64,000 nucleotides of DNA, taken from contig JAOZVV010000046.1 in assembly GCA_025869365.1 (NCBI GenBank), positions 3,176 through 67,175 on the forward strand. Direction: 5' to 3'. A program made the translations under genes and the position numbers. Every line of letters starts with the position of its first letter. The first letter of the stretch is position 1. The notes under the pieces were generated by a model. That model saw only the letters and a program-made list of their open reading frames with translations. It did not search any database and was not told the origin of the DNA. Below are positions 31,423-37,941 of the stretch, piece by piece. The stretch is from Pseudonocardia sp. GTDB taxonomy: Bacteria > Actinomycetota > Actinomycetes > Mycobacteriales > Pseudonocardiaceae.

Positions 31423-31492
31423 GCCCCGGCAATCCGCGTTGTGGAGCCACAACGCGCTCCTGGGGCCTGGGACTCGTTTCAGCGTTGTGGCT
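31404..31492. repeat. inverted/direct repeats between methyltransferase and yibE/F genes
   Basis: AGCCACAACGCGCTCCTG occurs at 31404-31421 and 31445-31462; its core in reverse (AGCGTTGTGGCT) is at 31481-31492. GCGTTGTG and CACAACGC (31436-31443, 31448-31455) also form a compact hairpin. The element covers the stop codons of both convergent genes and probably terminates both. Confidence 0.75.
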
Positions 31493-33245
31493 TCACCTCC
31501 TCGCGGGCGGCCACCAGGGCGGCGAGGGCGGTGGTGACCGGCACGGACGCGACCAGGCCGATGCTCCCGACGAGGGTCCGGACGATCTCGGTCGCGACGT
31601 CCTGGGTGGTCAGCACCTGGCCGAGGCTGTTGGCGGACACCGTGAACAGCAGCATGAGCGGGAGCGACGCGCCCGCGTAGGCCAGGACCAGCGTGTTGAC
31701 CGCGGACGACACGTGGTCCCGCCCGATGCGCATCCCGGCGGTGAACAGGGCGCGGGCACCCAGGGCGGGGTTGGCCCTGCGCAGCTCCCACACCGCGCTG
31801 GTCTGGGTGACCGTGACGTCGTCGAGGACACCCAGGGCGCCGATGAGGAAGCCGGCCAGCAGCAGCCCCCGGGCGTCGACCGGCGAGCCGAGCGTCGCGA
31901 TCAGGCTGGCCGTCGTGTCGTCGAGACCGGTCAGCCGGGCGAGCACGGAGAACACCGCGCTCAGGGCCGCGATCAGGGCGAGGGAGACGAGCGTGCCGAG
32001 CACGGCCGTGGACGTCCGGGCGGAGAAGCCGTGCGTCAGGTACAGCACCAGGAACATGATCAGGCACGAGCCGACCACCGCCACGGCCAGCGGGTTCGAG
32101 CCCGCGAGCACCGCCGGCAGGACGAACAGGGCCAGCACGACGAAGCTCAGCCCGAGTGCGACCAGCGCTGCGAGCCCGCGCCACCTGCCCAGCACGAGCA
32201 CCGCCAGCGCGAACGCGACGGCCAGCCAGATCAGCGGTCCGGACCGCTGGAAGTCCACGACCTGGTAGGACCCGGCGTCGAGCGGATCCGCGCCGGACCA
32301 GGCCAGGACGATCCGGTCGCCCACCGCGAACCGCGGCGTCGACGGCTCGACGGGGACGAGCTGGACGAGGTCCCGGCCCGCGACGGGGCCGTCCGCGAGG
32401 CGCAGGGTCAGCCCGCTGCAGCCGCCGCTCCCGGAGCCGGGGGTGCAGTCCGCCGCGACCGCGGCCGTGACCTCCGCGTGGAGGAGCTGCTGCGGGGGCT
32501 GAGTGGTGGTGGGCGCCGGGCCGCTGGGCCAGAGCAGCACCAGGCCGGCCAGCGTGGCGAGGGCGCACGGGATCAGCAGCGCGGCGATCAGGACGCGGAC
32601 GCGACGGCCGGCGGGCGGCGCCGGGGTGTGCCCGTGCCCGTGTCCGTGCGGGAGACCACCCGGCCCGGTGGGGACGGGCCGGTCGGGACCGGAGTGCTCG
32701 AGGCCGGGTTGATCAGACCGGGGCTGATCGGACCGGGGCTGATCGGACCGGGGCTGATCGGGCCGGGGCCGGTCGGCGGGCCGCTCGCGACCGGGGCGCG
32801 GCCGGGGGCGAAGAGCGGGCCGGCCGGCGGTGCTCCCGCCGCCTGCTCCCGCCGGGACCGGCACCGGGACCTGCGGGTCGCCCTGCGGATCAGTGTCGAG
32901 GGCCGGCCTGCCGGAGGCGCTCCGGGACCAGGGTGGCGGTGGGACGTGCTCGGGCCGGGCGGGCGCCCCGGCCCCCGGCCCACCGCGGCGGGACCCGGCC
33001 TGCAGGGGCTCCGGGTCGGACCGCGGCGCTGGTGGCGGGCTCAACAGGTCGTCCACCAGGTCGCCGACGGTCCGCGGTTCGGGTGGCGGGACGTGCCTGA
33101 TCAGGGGCTGTCCGCGGCCGGGTGTCGGCGGGTCGTCGCGGCGGCGCCGGTGCCGCCCCGTGTCGGACACGTTCCGAGGGTCCTCCGGGCGTCCCGGCAC
33201 TCGCGGCTGCACCCCGCCATCCTGCACACCGGGCCGCGGGGGCAT
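31479..33245 (-). CDS. YibE/F-like membrane protein
   Basis: 588 residues. The first ~190 are a disordered, Pro/Arg/Asp-rich cytoplasmic region with tandem RSDQP units (encoded by a 15-bp repeat near 32715-32760). A membrane helix and an extracytoplasmic beta-like segment follow, then about seven helices (from WLAVAFALAVLVLGRWRGL). The helical part fits the YibE/F family, with conserved LDDVTVTQTSAVWEL and GRDHVSSAVNTLVLAYAGASLP. The family's function is unknown; transport has been proposed. It lies 42 nt downstream of gluconokinase. The start could lie further in, given the low-complexity N-terminus. Confidence 0.8.
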   Translation of the reverse strand: MPPRPGVQDGGVQPRVPGRPEDPRNVSDTGRHRRRRDDPPTPGRGQPLIRHVPPPEPRTVGDLVDDLLSPPPAPRSDPEPLQAGSRRGGPGAGAPARPEHVPPPPWSRSASGRPALDTDPQGDPQVPVPVPAGAGGGSTAGRPALRPRPRPGRERPADRPRPDQPRSDQPRSDQPRSDQPGLEHSGPDRPVPTGPGGLPHGHGHGHTPAPPAGRRVRVLIAALLIPCALATLAGLVLLWPSGPAPTTTQPPQQLLHAEVTAAVAADCTPGSGSGGCSGLTLRLADGPVAGRDLVQLVPVEPSTPRFAVGDRIVLAWSGADPLDAGSYQVVDFQRSGPLIWLAVAFALAVLVLGRWRGLAALVALGLSFVVLALFVLPAVLAGSNPLAVAVVGSCLIMFLVLYLTHGFSARTSTAVLGTLVSLALIAALSAVFSVLARLTGLDDTTASLIATLGSPVDARGLLLAGFLIGALGVLDDVTVTQTSAVWELRRANPALGARALFTAGMRIGRDHVSSAVNTLVLAYAGASLPLMLLFTVSANSLGQVLTTQDVATEIVRTLVGSIGLVASVPVTTALAALVAAREEVKPQR

Positions 33246-33287: not shown

Positions 33288-33902
33288 TCACCGAGAGCAG
33301 TCGCCGCGTGATCGGTCCCGAACCCCCGGGACGACGACGCCGACCCTGGCGAGCTGCCCGGCGGCGGCATCCACCACGGCCGCCACGTCGTGCTCCGCGC
33401 GGACCTCGACGCCGGGCTCACCGGGCTCCAGCGGTTCCAGGGTGGCGAGCTGGCTGTCCAGCAGCGACGACGGCATGTAGTGGCCCGTGCGGTGCTCGAG
33501 GCGGTCCCGCAGCGAGCCGGGCGAGACCAGGAGATGGACGAACCGGACCGACGGATGACCTTCGCGCAGGACGTCCCGGTAGCGGCGGCGCAGCGACGAA
33601 CAGGTCAGCACGGCGTCGCGGCCCGCGGCCTCCTGTTCGCCGATCCAGTCCGCGATCAGGCGCAGCCACGGCCACCGGTCCTCGTCCGTGAGTGGCTGCC
33701 CGGCTGCCATCTTCCGCCGGTTGGCCTCGGGGTGGAGGTCGTCGCCCTCGGCGAACGCCCAGCCGGTGCGGCGCACCAGCTCGTCGGCGACGGTGGACTT
33801 CCCGACCCCGGAGACCCCCATGACGATCAGGGTCGTCGTGCCCGGGCTCGTCGTGCCCGGGGATCCGCTCGGCGCTGCGCTCATGGGTGCAGCTTCGGAC
33901 AT
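33288..33902 (-). CDS. gntK: gluconokinase
   Basis: 204 residues, or 198 if the second Met (33884) is used. It has the P-loop GVSGVGKST, the GntK segments GDDLHPEANRRKMAAGQPLTDEDRWPWL, and CSSLRRRYRDVLR. It phosphorylates gluconate to 6-phosphogluconate for the pentose phosphate pathway. The gene diverges from the intein-containing radical SAM gene, and the SOS box at 33952-33967 lies 50 nt upstream of its start. No gluconate permease or regulator is adjacent. Confidence 0.88.
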   Translation of the reverse strand: MSEAAPMSAAPSGSPGTTSPGTTTLIVMGVSGVGKSTVADELVRRTGWAFAEGDDLHPEANRRKMAAGQPLTDEDRWPWLRLIADWIGEQEAAGRDAVLTCSSLRRRYRDVLREGHPSVRFVHLLVSPGSLRDRLEHRTGHYMPSSLLDSQLATLEPLEPGEPGVEVRAEHDVAAVVDAAAGQLARVGVVVPGVRDRSRGDCSR

Positions 33903-33951: not shown

Positions 33952-33967
33952 TCGAATGTATGTTCGA
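33952..33967. promoter_or_regulatory. LexA (SOS) box upstream of the radical SAM gene
   Basis: TCGAATGTATGTTCGA matches the actinobacterial SOS box TCGAAC-N4-GTTCGA at 11 of 12 fixed positions. It ends 8 nt before the GTG at 33976, so bound LexA would cover the start of transcription. Confidence 0.75.
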
Positions 33968-33975
33968 ATAGCGGG

Positions 33976-36045
33976 GTGAGATGGAGCGGTCAGCAGGTAC
34001 TGGACGACGGGATCGGCGAGGAGACGGCGCTGCCGGGCCTGCGCGGCCTGCTGCGCTCGGTCCGCACACCCGAGTTCGCGGGCACGGTGTTCCACGAGGT
34101 GGAGGCCAAGTCCGTGCTCAACCGTGTGCCGAGTGCGTCGCCGATGCCGTTCTCGTGGACCGTGAACCCGTACCGCGGCTGCTCGCACGCGTGCGTCTAC
34201 TGCCTCAGCGGCGACACCCGGATCCTGCTCGCGGACGGTCGTACCCGGCCGATCGCGGAGCTCCGGGAGGGGGACGCGGTGCTGGGCACCCGGCCAGTCG
34301 GCCCGGACGGGCGGCGCGTCTACGTGCGGACCAGCGTGCTCGCCCACTGGTCCACCCGGCGCCCCGCGTACCGCGTCACCCTCGCGGACGGGACGCGGCT
34401 GGTCACCAGCGGGGAGCACCGGTTCCTCACGGACAGGGGCTGGCGGCACGTCGCCCCGGGCTGGTGCCGCAGCGGCCGCCGCCCGTACCTGAAGGAGGGC
34501 AGCGTGCTGCGCGGGCCGGGCGCCGCCGCGTTCGCGGCGGGGACGCACGGTCCCGGGGGCGTGCCCGCGTCGAGGGGGTCCGGTTCGAGGGGGTCCGGGC
34601 CGAGGGGGTCCGGGCGCCGGGAGGACGGCCCGTACCGGGAGGGCTACCTCTGCGGGGTGATCCGTGCGGACGGTGCCCCCGGCCGGACCGCGCCGGGGGA
34701 GTCGTTCCCGTCGGAGTGGTTGGAGCTCGAGGCACTCGGCCGGGCGCATCACCTGCTCGCCGGGCTGCGGGCCCACGCCGCCCTCGCGGTCGGGGCGCCG
34801 GGGGAGCGGCCGGCGCTCGCCGGGGTGGTCGGCTGGCCGGAGCAGCCGTCCGCGGCGTGGTCGGAGGGGTTCGTCGCCGGGGTGCTCGACGCGGCGGGCG
34901 AGGTCTCCGGCGGTGCGCTGCGGATCGTGACGTCGGACGAGGCGCTGATGCGGCGTGCCGCGGACGCGCTGCGCCGCCTGGGCTTCCGCGTCGGGGTGGA
35001 CGCCGGCCCGGTGCGCGGCGGGCGGTCCCTGCGGTTGCTCGGCGGGGCGGCGGAACACCTGCGGCTGGTCCGCGCGGTGGATCCGGCGGTGGCGCGGCTG
35101 CGCGATCTCGACGGCGCGCTGCTGGAGCCGCCGCCCGCGGGCGGGCTGGAGGTCCTCACCGTGGAGGCGCTGGGCACCGAGATCCCGATGTTCGACATCA
35201 CGACCGGCACCGGGGACTTCGTCGCCGAGGGCGTGATCAGCCACAACTGCTTCGCCCGTAACACCCACACCTACCTGGACCTGGACGCGGGCAAGGACTT
35301 CGACGGCCAGATCATCGTGAAGGTCAACGTCGCCCGGGTGCTGGAACGGGAGCTGGCCGCGCCGCGGTGGAACCGGGAGCCGGTCGCGATGGGCACCAAC
35401 ACCGATCCCTACCAGCGGGCCGAGGGCCGCTACCGGCTGATGCCCGGGATCATCCGGGCGCTGGCCCGTTCCGGGACGCCGTTCTCCGTGCTCACCAAGG
35501 GGACGGTCCTCGGCCGGGACCTGCCGGACCTCACCGCCGCCGCGGCGGACGTGCCCGTCGGGCTCGGGGTGTCGATCGCCCTGCTGGACCGGGGCCTGCA
35601 GGCCCATCTGGAGCCCGGCACACCGTCGCCCGGGGCCAGGCTGGACCTCGTCCGCCGGATCACCGACGCCGGGCTGGGCTGCGGGGTCATGGTGGCCCCC
35701 GTGCTGCCGCACCTCACGGACTCGTCCGAGGCCCTGGACGCGCTGCTCGGCCGGATCGCGGCCGCGGGGGCCACCGGCGCGAGCGTGCTGGCGCTGCACC
35801 TGCGCCCGGGCACCCGGGAGTGGTTCATGGCGTGGCTCGCCCGGGAGTACCCCCCGCTGGTCCCGCGGTACGAGCAGCTCTACCGCAGGGGTGCCTACGT
35901 GGACCCGGGCTACCGGAGGGCGCTGGGCGCCCGGGTCGTGCCCCTGCTGCGCCGGCACGGCCTCACCGGGGCGGTGACCCCGGCCCTCCGCGGGGTGCCG
36001 GAGCAGGCGCCGGATCCGGGGCCGGAACAGCTGAGCCTGCTGTGA
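33976..36045 (+). CDS. Rv2578c-family radical SAM protein interrupted by an intein
   Basis: 689 codons. After VRWSGQQVLDDG and NRVPSASPMPFSWTVNPYRG the radical SAM motif CSHACVYC is reached. The last Cys is residue 76, the first residue of a 349-residue intein (34201-35247), which ends in SHN before C-F-A-R-N. Splicing would restore CSHACVYC in a protein of 340 residues, the normal family length. The C-extein continues with the family's GTNTDPYQRAEGRYRLM and LTKGTVLGRDLPDL. The family resembles spore photoproduct lyase and DNA-repair-related radical SAM enzymes. The GTG start is supported by the conserved RW after it and by the SOS box upstream. Confidence 0.93.
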   Translation: MRWSGQQVLDDGIGEETALPGLRGLLRSVRTPEFAGTVFHEVEAKSVLNRVPSASPMPFSWTVNPYRGCSHACVYCLSGDTRILLADGRTRPIAELREGDAVLGTRPVGPDGRRVYVRTSVLAHWSTRRPAYRVTLADGTRLVTSGEHRFLTDRGWRHVAPGWCRSGRRPYLKEGSVLRGPGAAAFAAGTHGPGGVPASRGSGSRGSGPRGSGRREDGPYREGYLCGVIRADGAPGRTAPGESFPSEWLELEALGRAHHLLAGLRAHAALAVGAPGERPALAGVVGWPEQPSAAWSEGFVAGVLDAAGEVSGGALRIVTSDEALMRRAADALRRLGFRVGVDAGPVRGGRSLRLLGGAAEHLRLVRAVDPAVARLRDLDGALLEPPPAGGLEVLTVEALGTEIPMFDITTGTGDFVAEGVISHNCFARNTHTYLDLDAGKDFDGQIIVKVNVARVLERELAAPRWNREPVAMGTNTDPYQRAEGRYRLMPGIIRALARSGTPFSVLTKGTVLGRDLPDLTAAAADVPVGLGVSIALLDRGLQAHLEPGTPSPGARLDLVRRITDAGLGCGVMVAPVLPHLTDSSEALDALLGRIAAAGATGASVLALHLRPGTREWFMAWLAREYPPLVPRYEQLYRRGAYVDPGYRRALGARVVPLLRRHGLTGAVTPALRGVPEQAPDPGPEQLSLL
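34201..35247 (+). other. intein (349 aa) with degenerate LAGLIDADG endonuclease
   Basis: Splicing residues are complete: Cys1 (block A, CLSGDTRILLADGRTRPI), a block B TSGEH, block F (MFDITTGTGDFVAEG), the terminal His-Asn, and Cys as the +1 residue. Two LAGLIDADG-like helices are present: LCGVIRADG keeps the last Asp, but VAGVLDAAG has Ala there. With one of two catalytic acids lost, homing is probably dead while splicing should work. A 15-bp tandem repeat (about 34573-34617) encodes RGSGSRGSGPRGSG before the endonuclease part. Confidence 0.92.
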
Positions 36046-36105: not shown

Positions 36106-37941
36106 GTGATGCGTTCCCACCCCGTCGGCACCCTGCGTGCCGAACATGCCGGCCAGACCGTGACCCTCGCCGGATGGGTGGCCCGTCGTCGCGATCACGG
36201 CGGCGTCATCTTCATCGACCTGCGGGACACCTCCGGTTCCGCCCAGGTCGTCTTCCGCGAGGGCGAGATGGCGGAGCGGGCCCACCGGCTCCGCTCCGAG
36301 TTCTGTGTGCAGGTCACCGGCGAGGTCGTCCTGCGGCCCGAGGGCAACGACAACCCGGAGCTCGCCACCGGCGCCATCGAGGTCACGGTCACGGACCTGG
36401 TCGTGCTGTCCGAGTCCGCGCCGCTGCCGTTCCCCGTCGAGGGTGACGCCGGTGTCGGCGAGGAGATCCGGCTCAAGCACCGCTACCTGGACCTGCGCCG
36501 GTCCGGCCCGGCCTCGGCGATCAAGCTGCGCAGCGCCGTGAACCGCGCCGCGCGCTCGGTGCTGGACGCCCAGGACTTCGTCGAGATCGAGACCCCCACG
36601 CTCACCCGCTCGACGCCCGAGGGTGCCCGGGACTTCCTGGTCCCCGCCCGGCTCCGGCCCGGCTCCTGGTACGCGCTGCCGCAGAGCCCGCAGCTGTTCA
36701 AGCAGCTGCTGATGGTCGGTGGCCTGGAGCGGTACTACCAGATCGCCCGCTGCTACCGCGACGAGGACTTCCGCGCGGACCGCCAGCCGGAGTTCACGCA
36801 GCTGGACATCGAGATGAGCTTCGTCGAGCAGGACGACGTGCTGCGCCTCGCCGAGGAGATCCTGGCCGAGCTGTGGCAGCTCGTGGACCACGAGATCCCG
36901 CGCCCGATCCGGCGGATCAGCTACGCCGAGGCGATGGACCGCTTCGGCTCGGACAAGCCGGACCTGCGGTTCGACATCGAGCTCACGGACCTCACCGCGT
37001 ACTTCGCGAACACCGGCTTCCGGGTCTTCCAGAACCCCTACGTCGGCGCCGTCGTCATGCCGGGCGGGGCGAGCCAGCCCCGCAAGCAGCTCGACGCGTG
37101 GCAGGAGTGGGCCAAGCAGCGCGGCGCCCGCGGCCTCGCCTACGTGCTCGTCGACGAGGACGGGACCGTGTCCGAGAAGGGCCCGGTCACCAAGAACCTC
37201 TCCGAGGACGAGCGGGCCGGCCTGCCCGCCGCCGTCGGCGCGAAGCCGGGGGACTGCATCTTCTTCGCCGCGGGGCGGCCGAACGAGGCCCGCCCGCTGC
37301 TCGGCGCCGCGCGCGGGGAGATCGCCCGCCGGACCGGGGCGATCGACGAGAACGCCTGGTCCTTCGTGTGGGTCGTGGACTTCCCGCTGTTCGAGTCCGC
37401 GGACGAGAGCGACGACGTCGCCGTCGGCCACGGTCGCTGGACCGCGCTGCACCACGCGTTCACCTCGCCCACCCCGGACTGGATCGACAAGTTCGAGTCG
37501 GACCCGGGCAACGCGCTGGCCTACGCCTACGACATCGTCTGCAACGGCAACGAGATCGGCGGCGGGTCCATCCGTATCCACCGCGCGGACGTGCAGAAGC
37601 GGGTCTTCGAGATCATGGGCCTCGGCGAGGAGGAGGCGCAGGAGAAGTTCGGCTTCCTGCTCGACGCCTTCGCCTACGGCCCGCCCCCGCACGGCGGCAT
37701 CGCGTTCGGCTGGGACCGCATCACCGCGCTCCTGGCCGGGGTGGACTCGATCCGCGAGGTCATCGCCTTCCCGAAGACCGGTGGCGGGTTCGACCCGCTG
37801 ACCGCGGCGCCCGCCCCGATCACGCCGGAGCAGCGCAAGGAGGCGGGCGTGGACTTCGTCGCGCCGAAGCCGGTCGCGGCCGGGGGCGCGAAGGCGGACA
37901 CCGCGGTCGCCGAGGCGGACACCGCGGGCGGCGGAGCCTGA
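36106..37941 (+). CDS. aspS: aspartyl-tRNA synthetase
   Basis: 611 residues of the bacterial AspRS type. It has an N-terminal anticodon-binding OB fold ([23 protein letters not shown]), class II motif 2 ([21 protein letters not shown]), the inserted GAD domain, and motif 3 ([13 protein letters not shown]). An Ala-rich tail of about 25 residues ends the protein. The start is GTG 36106 or the adjacent ATG 36109. Whether it is discriminating or charges tRNA-Asn as well cannot be read off here. Confidence 0.96.

Follow-up and report, generated by a model that had tools for sequence, protein, structure and literature searches.

A putative homing intein at the third cluster cysteine of Rv2578c-family radical SAM genes in Pseudonocardia and its relatives

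An intein that begins where a radical SAM enzyme should have the third cysteine of its cluster motif raises the question of whether it serves its host, as a switch on the maturation of the enzyme, or is mainly a selfish element at a convenient address. The gene concerned lies in a stretch of 64,000 nucleotides, here called the window, from a soil actinomycete whose nearest named records are Pseudonocardia. The first-pass annotation had placed the intein at 33976..36045; these coordinates hold for the whole gene, and the intein itself takes up 34201-35247 only. The features discussed below are, in window positions:

33976..36045, forward strand: gene for the intein-containing precursor of an Rv2578c-family radical SAM protein (689 aa, GTG start, TGA stop), read directly.
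33976..34200, forward strand: N-extein of 75 aa, ending in NPYRGCSHACVY and holding cluster Cys 1 and 2; C-7, C-3 and Y-1 occur in 162/162 intein-containing loci.
34201..35247, forward strand: intein of 349 aa, from Cys1 to His-Asn (CLSGDTRILLADG...FDITTGTGDFVAEGVISHN), by profile and alignment; the precursor model matches intein and LAGLIDADG structures.
34408..34419, forward strand: block B, S-G-E-H, its His invariant in an alignment of 34 inteins.
34642..34671, forward strand: LAGLIDADG motif 1, GYLCGVIRAD, with the catalytic Asp position (34669-34671) kept in the profile alignment to GDG of I-DmoI.
34858..34899, forward strand: LAGLIDADG motif 2, WSEGFVAGVLDAAG, with Ala for the catalytic acid (34894-34896) in the profile alignment to AEG of I-DmoI.
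35194..35196, forward strand: block F Asp, invariant in the 34-intein alignment.
35242..35247, forward strand: the His-Asn pair that closes the intein, in 162/162 loci.
35248..36042, forward strand: C-extein, starting CFARNTHTYLDL, with Cys+1 at 35248-35250; the model matches spore photoproduct lyase.
33952..33967, forward strand: LexA/SOS-type box TCGAATGTATGTTCGA, ending 8 bases 5' of the start codon.
33288-33902, reverse strand: neighbouring P-loop (AAA_33) protein.
31479-33245, reverse strand: neighbouring YibE/F protein.
36106-37941, forward strand: neighbouring class II tRNA synthetase, D/K/N type.

Cys1 (34201) occupies the expected third-Cys place of GCSHACVY-C. At its other end the intein closes with VISHN, the next residue is Cys (35248), followed by FARNTH, and the CSHACVY of the N-extein together with Cys+1 gives the C-x3-C-x2-C of a radical SAM enzyme in the mature protein. 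Direct reading and alignment find the residues of a class 1 intein (Cys1, Ser-Gly-Glu-His in block B, Asp in block F, the penultimate His, the terminal Asn, and Cys+1), in agreement with the first-pass annotation, which gave all splicing residues as present; block B is S-x-x-H here, as against the usual T-x-x-H. The protein scores 797.8 bits against the NCBIfam profile NF038136 (rSAM_Rv_intein; cut-off 700) and is a member of that family, so NCBI does already name intein-containing members, as the first-pass annotation stated. NF038135 is likewise over its cut-off (512 bits), the intein_Nterm profile TIGR01445 gives 37.4 bits (cut-off 24.5), and Pfam Radical_SAM (PF04055) 33.9 bits (cut-off 29.5). 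Pfam Intein_splicing, Hom_end, and LAGLIDADG_3 stay under their cut-offs in the window protein, and the genome of the window (5.27 Mb, 90% complete) holds no second TIGR01445 match at E <= 0.01. Foldseek matches to the structural model of the precursor (mean pLDDT 81.4, pTM 0.60) include inteins, I-DmoI, and spore photoproduct lyase. An ordinary domain insertion is ruled out by the intein profiles and the splice-site residues, and the sequence comparisons confirm 34201-35247 as a class-1 intein before the third Cys of the radical SAM motif C-x3-C-x2-C.

Relatives carry the insertion at the same site. Our comparison covers 130 loci from the window's genome and its order (L051 was left out of parsing) and 80 further named loci, the best 80 of 583 confirmed relatives, of which 77 were parsed. 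Among the 130 loci, 85 contain the intein, 36 lack it, five were parsed as partial (one of these, L116, reads CYAR and is in fact intein-less), and four were missed by the parser, which demanded the C-x3-C-x2 motif followed by C, S or T and would miss an intein elsewhere in the protein. The pooled set comprises 162 intein-containing loci (144 distinct in DNA) and 36 intein-less ones (35 distinct). Cys1, the terminal His-Asn, Cys+1, Cys-3, Cys-7, and Tyr-1 are present in all of the former, and the third Cys is kept in all of the latter; since these read C-x3-C-x2-C in 36/36 cases, it is Cys+1 that serves as cluster Cys in the mature protein. This alignment with intein-less homologues bears out the claim that the intein splits the cluster motif at its third Cys and that Cys+1 completes it. 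Arg at position -2 occurs in 4/162 loci with the intein and 7/36 without, counts in which relatedness and repeats are uncontrolled. The family described by NF038136 agrees with the window in its hosts, in the site of insertion, and in the intein itself, and nothing essential differs. The same intein also occurs under the NF038136 cut-off, at the same cluster Cys in PA0069-family hosts from other phyla: four of seven precursors tested (L181, L182, L197, and L204) pass the cut-off of NF033668 with hosts not over that of NF038136, and L173 falls just under the former (353 vs 360); the record titles of these five are Rubrobacter, Steroidobacteraceae, Omnitrophota, Myxococcales, and Omnitrophica. 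Our literature search, whose coverage of subscription journals is poor, found no publication on the present intein.

The presence of the intein is patchy, its family cut-off being exceeded in 89 of the 397 sampled genomes of the window's order. Within the window's genus (its own genome and 35 others) 23 genomes carry it, 19 complete and four broken or split over contigs, while eight lack it, one has a fragment only, and four give no match. In an extein tree of 53 chosen loci the label 'no intein' takes 11 changes, at least ten of them forced by well-supported branches, and the intein-less loci sit at several places among the Pseudonocardia carriers. Intein and extein distances are correlated (r 0.35 over 85 loci, and 0.58 over the 19 of the window's genus), with 0/999 permutations as high in either comparison; its outliers L090 and L019 are, from their sequences, candidates for transfer or fast change. 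L019 and L038 are sister exteins in Pseudonocardia, one of them with a 149-aa mini-intein unlike the inteins of its congeners and the other without an intein. Two further loci, L031 (G002) and L129 (G338), show a frame change inside the intein and are either broken genes or sequencing errors. Presence and absence among such close relatives provide a ready natural experiment.

The reading we favour, at a probability of roughly 0.7, is that of a class-1 LAGLIDADG intein at a fixed, shared site which is mainly selfish and decaying, with no dedicated switch needed in Pseudonocardia. One widely shared insertion site in radical SAM enzymes of the Rv2578c and PA0069 types would be its address. Splicing, predicted from the complete residues, would remove Cys1 and move Cys+1 of the C-extein, placed as the anatomy shows, to the third position, and the authentic cluster site would exist after splicing only. 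An intein requires Cys, Ser or Thr at +1. Inteins are mostly found at functional sites that are conserved (PMC7765530, in the part available), and both considerations together make an invariant Cys the expected address; the site would be used because it is invariant and is the source of the Cys+1 nucleophile. Distribution and tree suggest that the element spread by homing and by descent and was then lost again. At the level of sequence, the profile match, the identical site and splicing residues, the patchy presence, the PA0069 hosts, the homology to I-DmoI, the endonuclease states, the tree, the distance correlation, and a constraint in Pseudonocardia that is weaker on the endonuclease region than on the splicing part (both given below) argue for this reading of a predicted splicing element; against it counts the Ser of block B where Thr is usual. 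In sum the window's intein is an already catalogued one at a chemically interesting address.

Like I-DmoI and other LAGLIDADG endonucleases, the window's intein has two motifs (profile E 1.7e-6; Foldseek match). The I-DmoI profile alignment at this E-value places acids, which we take to be the catalytic ones of I-DmoI, at the ends of both motifs, and an I-DmoI E117A mutant is named in the title of a structure. I-DmoI keeps the acid of motif 2, whereas the window has Asp at the end of GYLCGVIRAD and Ala in GFVAGVLDAAG, and so has just one of the two motif-end acids that mark an active LAGLIDADG endonuclease. Short of one catalytic acid, the window's endonuclease probably no longer homes, and it would be kept because the intein splices. 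Endonuclease states were assigned by regular expressions, by which odd motifs may be misassigned, and inteins under 200 aa were taken as mini-inteins: both acids are found in 75 of the 162 loci, one in 49, none in 25, and 13 are mini-inteins (66, 41, 24, and 13, respectively, of the 144 distinct inteins). Only one of 19 parsed Pseudonocardia inteins keeps both acids. The endonuclease region of the window also contains a Gly/Ser/Arg-rich in-frame repeat (34550-34630) that is absent from the nearest relative, L014; far bigger low-complexity expansions occur in L032 (519 aa) and L033 (458 aa).

Constraint was estimated as pN/pS from Nei-Gojobori counts, given here in the order splicing part, endonuclease region, and C-extein. 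Pseudonocardia yields 0.26, 0.49, and 0.19 with 22 gap runs (seven pairs, six of them informative since L011 and L138 are identical), and the window's nearest pair, L001/L014, 0.29, 0.30, and 0.15. For comparison, the values are 0.23/0.37/0.19 and 0.21/0.41/0.29 in two sets whose inteins retain both acids, and 0.17/0.47/0.09 in a third that has one acid or none; inteins that have lost acids are thus only a little less constrained. Because the 0.49 of Pseudonocardia is little above the 0.37 and 0.41 of both-acid inteins, free decay of its endonuclease region has become a weaker reading. The same values weigh somewhat against a mainly selfish intein, since a dead passenger should approach a pN/pS of 1, which neither 0.49 nor the 0.30 of L001/L014 does, the latter being equal to that pair's value for the splicing part. 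Taken together, the endonuclease states, the tree, and the distances fit the course that homing elements usually take, from arrival through decay to loss. It is most improbable that the interrupted gene is simply dead, either a pseudogene or blocked by a non-splicing intein: the frame changes in the inteins of two relatives and the seeming dispensability of the gene in Streptomyces (PMC12924846, in part) would agree with this, but the window's frame is open, its splicing residues are complete, and its C-extein has a pN/pS of 0.15 against the nearest relative.

The gene had further been described as one of DNA-damage type. Its box, TCGAATGTATGTTCGA, is one mismatch away from TCGAAC-N4-GTTCGA. 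With up to three mismatches the window alone has 64 matches where 27 are expected, and two other sites are also at one mismatch, so that the box in the window by itself would prove little. In the relatives, the best match to TCGAAC-N4-GTTCGA was sought in the stretch from 600 to 120 bases 5' of the third Cys codon. A box with at most two mismatches stands there in 152/159 intein-containing and 34/36 intein-less loci or, with repeats removed and loci with short flanks dropped, in 135/142 distinct intein genes and 33/35 distinct intein-less ones. An equal-length stretch of the C-extein has it in 2/202; this control is coding sequence, whereas the tested stretch is partly non-coding. In most Pseudonocardia loci, the window included, the box starts 249 bases 5' of the third Cys codon. 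Its place in the relatives rules out a chance match, which the window alone could not do, and the conserved promoter box that marks a member of the LexA regulon is present. The box is equally common whether or not a gene carries the intein, which ties the SOS link to the enzyme; we infer from these sequences that the host enzyme is LexA-regulated in either case, and to that extent the DNA-damage label stands. That the damage link instead serves the element, the endonuclease being made when recombinational repair is induced, appears unlikely to us: the box in 135/142 distinct intein genes and both catalytic acids in 66/144 distinct inteins would suit such timed homing, but the box is as common in genes without the intein (33/35 distinct), and the window's endonuclease is minus one acid.

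Published work on Streptomyces, of which we draw on parts, gives the LexA consensus as tCGAAC-N4-GNNCGa, and tabulates among the LexA regulon members of S. venezuelae a radical SAM gene, vnz_31145, whose RNA-seq fold change after mitomycin C is 19.97 (PMC9380542). The box given there for this gene, TCGACCGTTCGCTC at -61, differs from the window-type box; the gene is a candidate Rv2578c orthologue. A Streptomyces radical SAM gene of the Rv2578c family contains the attB site of phage Samy; the report on it calls the link of the family to DNA repair speculative and describes inactivation in Streptomyces without clear cost (PMC12924846). Two kinds of mobile element, the intein and the phage Samy, hence use genes of this family. 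The host enzyme probably takes part in the response to damage, yet is dispensable in Streptomyces.

MoaA is a radical SAM host that uses C-x3-C-x2-C, and its intein in Pyrococcus abyssi is said to have been studied by Callahan et al. in 2011. By analogy, this intein presumably lies at the third cluster Cys as well. According to two reviews it has Cys at -3 and Cys1, like that of the window, and its native Cys-3/Cys1 disulfide blocks splicing when oxidised (PMC10663303; PMC3922620). Its host, an archaeal molybdenum-cofactor enzyme, is unlike that of the window. The mycobacterial DnaB inteins are actinobacterial, as is the window's, which has a weak sequence match to one of them (PDB 6bs8, E 0.00034); control by oxidative stress or zinc has been claimed for them, but host protein and site are other ones, and the M. 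smegmatis intein is, by its title, of class 3.

Redox control of splicing is plausible by analogy with P. abyssi MoaA and, in view of that precedent, not new in kind. Sensitivity of the present intein to redox state in the test tube is likely on the same grounds, from which a use in the cell does not follow. A trap with a role, in which a Cys-3/Cys1 disulfide would stop the first splicing step and so hold back the maturation of an oxygen-sensitive enzyme while conditions in the cell are not yet reducing, seems to us possible though doubtful. The arrangement of Cys-3 and Cys1 is found in all 162 intein-containing loci and has the P. abyssi disulfide as its model, but since the enzyme needs Cys-3 in any case, the conservation of this residue carries no weight as evidence; we dropped the position of these cysteines as evidence for control for this reason. 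Moreover, relatives that have a box of this kind but no intein manage without one, even in the same genus, and a dedicated switch of any sort is disfavoured by the invariant Cys being an expected address and by the missing catalytic acid of the window's endonuclease. Under the mainly selfish reading, oxidation or metal at Cys1 or Cys-3 probably can still bring splicing to a halt, as a side effect of the chemistry there. The first-pass annotation had the enzyme 'activated by redox state', which as regards oxidation is probably the wrong way round: oxidised Cys1 or Cys-3 would block splicing, and reduction would allow it.

The precursor might also bind iron or a [4Fe-4S] cluster, with C-7, C-3, and Cys1 as the ligands; this would mask the nucleophile and couple splicing to iron-sulfur status. 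Three thiols in the right linear order are there in the precursor, but we consider such gating quite improbable, since inhibition by zinc or copper would look alike and since the precursor model falls below pLDDT 50 at residues 68-71 (around the first cluster Cys) and 427-429 (after Cys+1), so that no formed cluster loop is predicted. If the chemistry of Cys1 does gate maturation, this would be the second radical SAM family, besides P. abyssi MoaA, with a possibly redox-sensing intein, and if true it would place an intein beside cluster cysteines in culturable actinomycetes, probably within the DNA-damage response.

A new lead comes from a sister genus in our sample, g26, taken to be Amycolatopsis from one match: the inteins of G482 and L180 (Amycolatopsis sp. 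RYN_118) are each 293 aa long and share their motifs. Of the 80 g26 genomes 76 have the intein (75 over the cut-off, and G434, where it seems split over two contigs) and four do not. From this genus 50 loci (L212-L261; the 30 best-scoring and 20 chosen) were taken, of which 49 were parsed, all distinct. Exactly 292 aa is the length of 42 of these 49 inteins, and all 42 have ...RSG and DLA, DIA or DLS in place of both acids; the other seven are mixed, L212 having both acids. In 20 disjoint pairs of 292-aa inteins pN/pS is 0.142 in the splicing part, 0.137 in the dead endonuclease region, and 0.114 in the C-extein; the pairs were chosen for equal length, and the lack of indels is shown just by the 42/49 that share it. 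Neutral simulation of three pairs (transition bias 3, GC 0.74, 300 runs) gave mean pN/pS values of 1.14-1.16, as against 0.11, 0.08, and 0.38 observed, and the smallest simulated values for these pairs were 0.45, 0.44, and 0.65. Pairs over deeper splits (with L071 or L101) range from 0.32 to 0.50, so it is within clades that the constraint shows most clearly.

A preserved dead endonuclease of this kind was unexpected, and the purely selfish account does not predict inteins that are near-fixed and constrained though endonuclease-dead. It suggests domestication or a role in folding: either this intein needs the domain in order to fold and splice, or the domain does something else. In g26 there are also mini-inteins (L109, parsed at 148 aa, and three more judged from the spacing of matches), and their sequences indicate that splicing without the endonuclease domain should be possible in principle. 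An endonuclease dead in most copies, near-constant length, near-fixation, and a constraint about as strong as that of the enzyme, all in Amycolatopsis, are what a host-serving maturation switch would draw on. From its place on a cluster ligand, such an intein would keep the SOS-induced enzyme from working before the cytoplasm is reducing and a cluster can be assembled, its former endonuclease domain, perhaps still DNA-binding, would tune splicing, and the Pseudonocardia version would be weaker or decaying; we regard this as improbable. The constrained, endonuclease-dead Amycolatopsis inteins nevertheless make the usefulness of inteins to their hosts directly testable. At least nine g26 genomes (G481, G316, G436, G447, G485, G464, G455, G454, and G465) have a second Rv2578c-like gene, intein-less and lower-scoring (308-319 bits), beside the intein-containing one.
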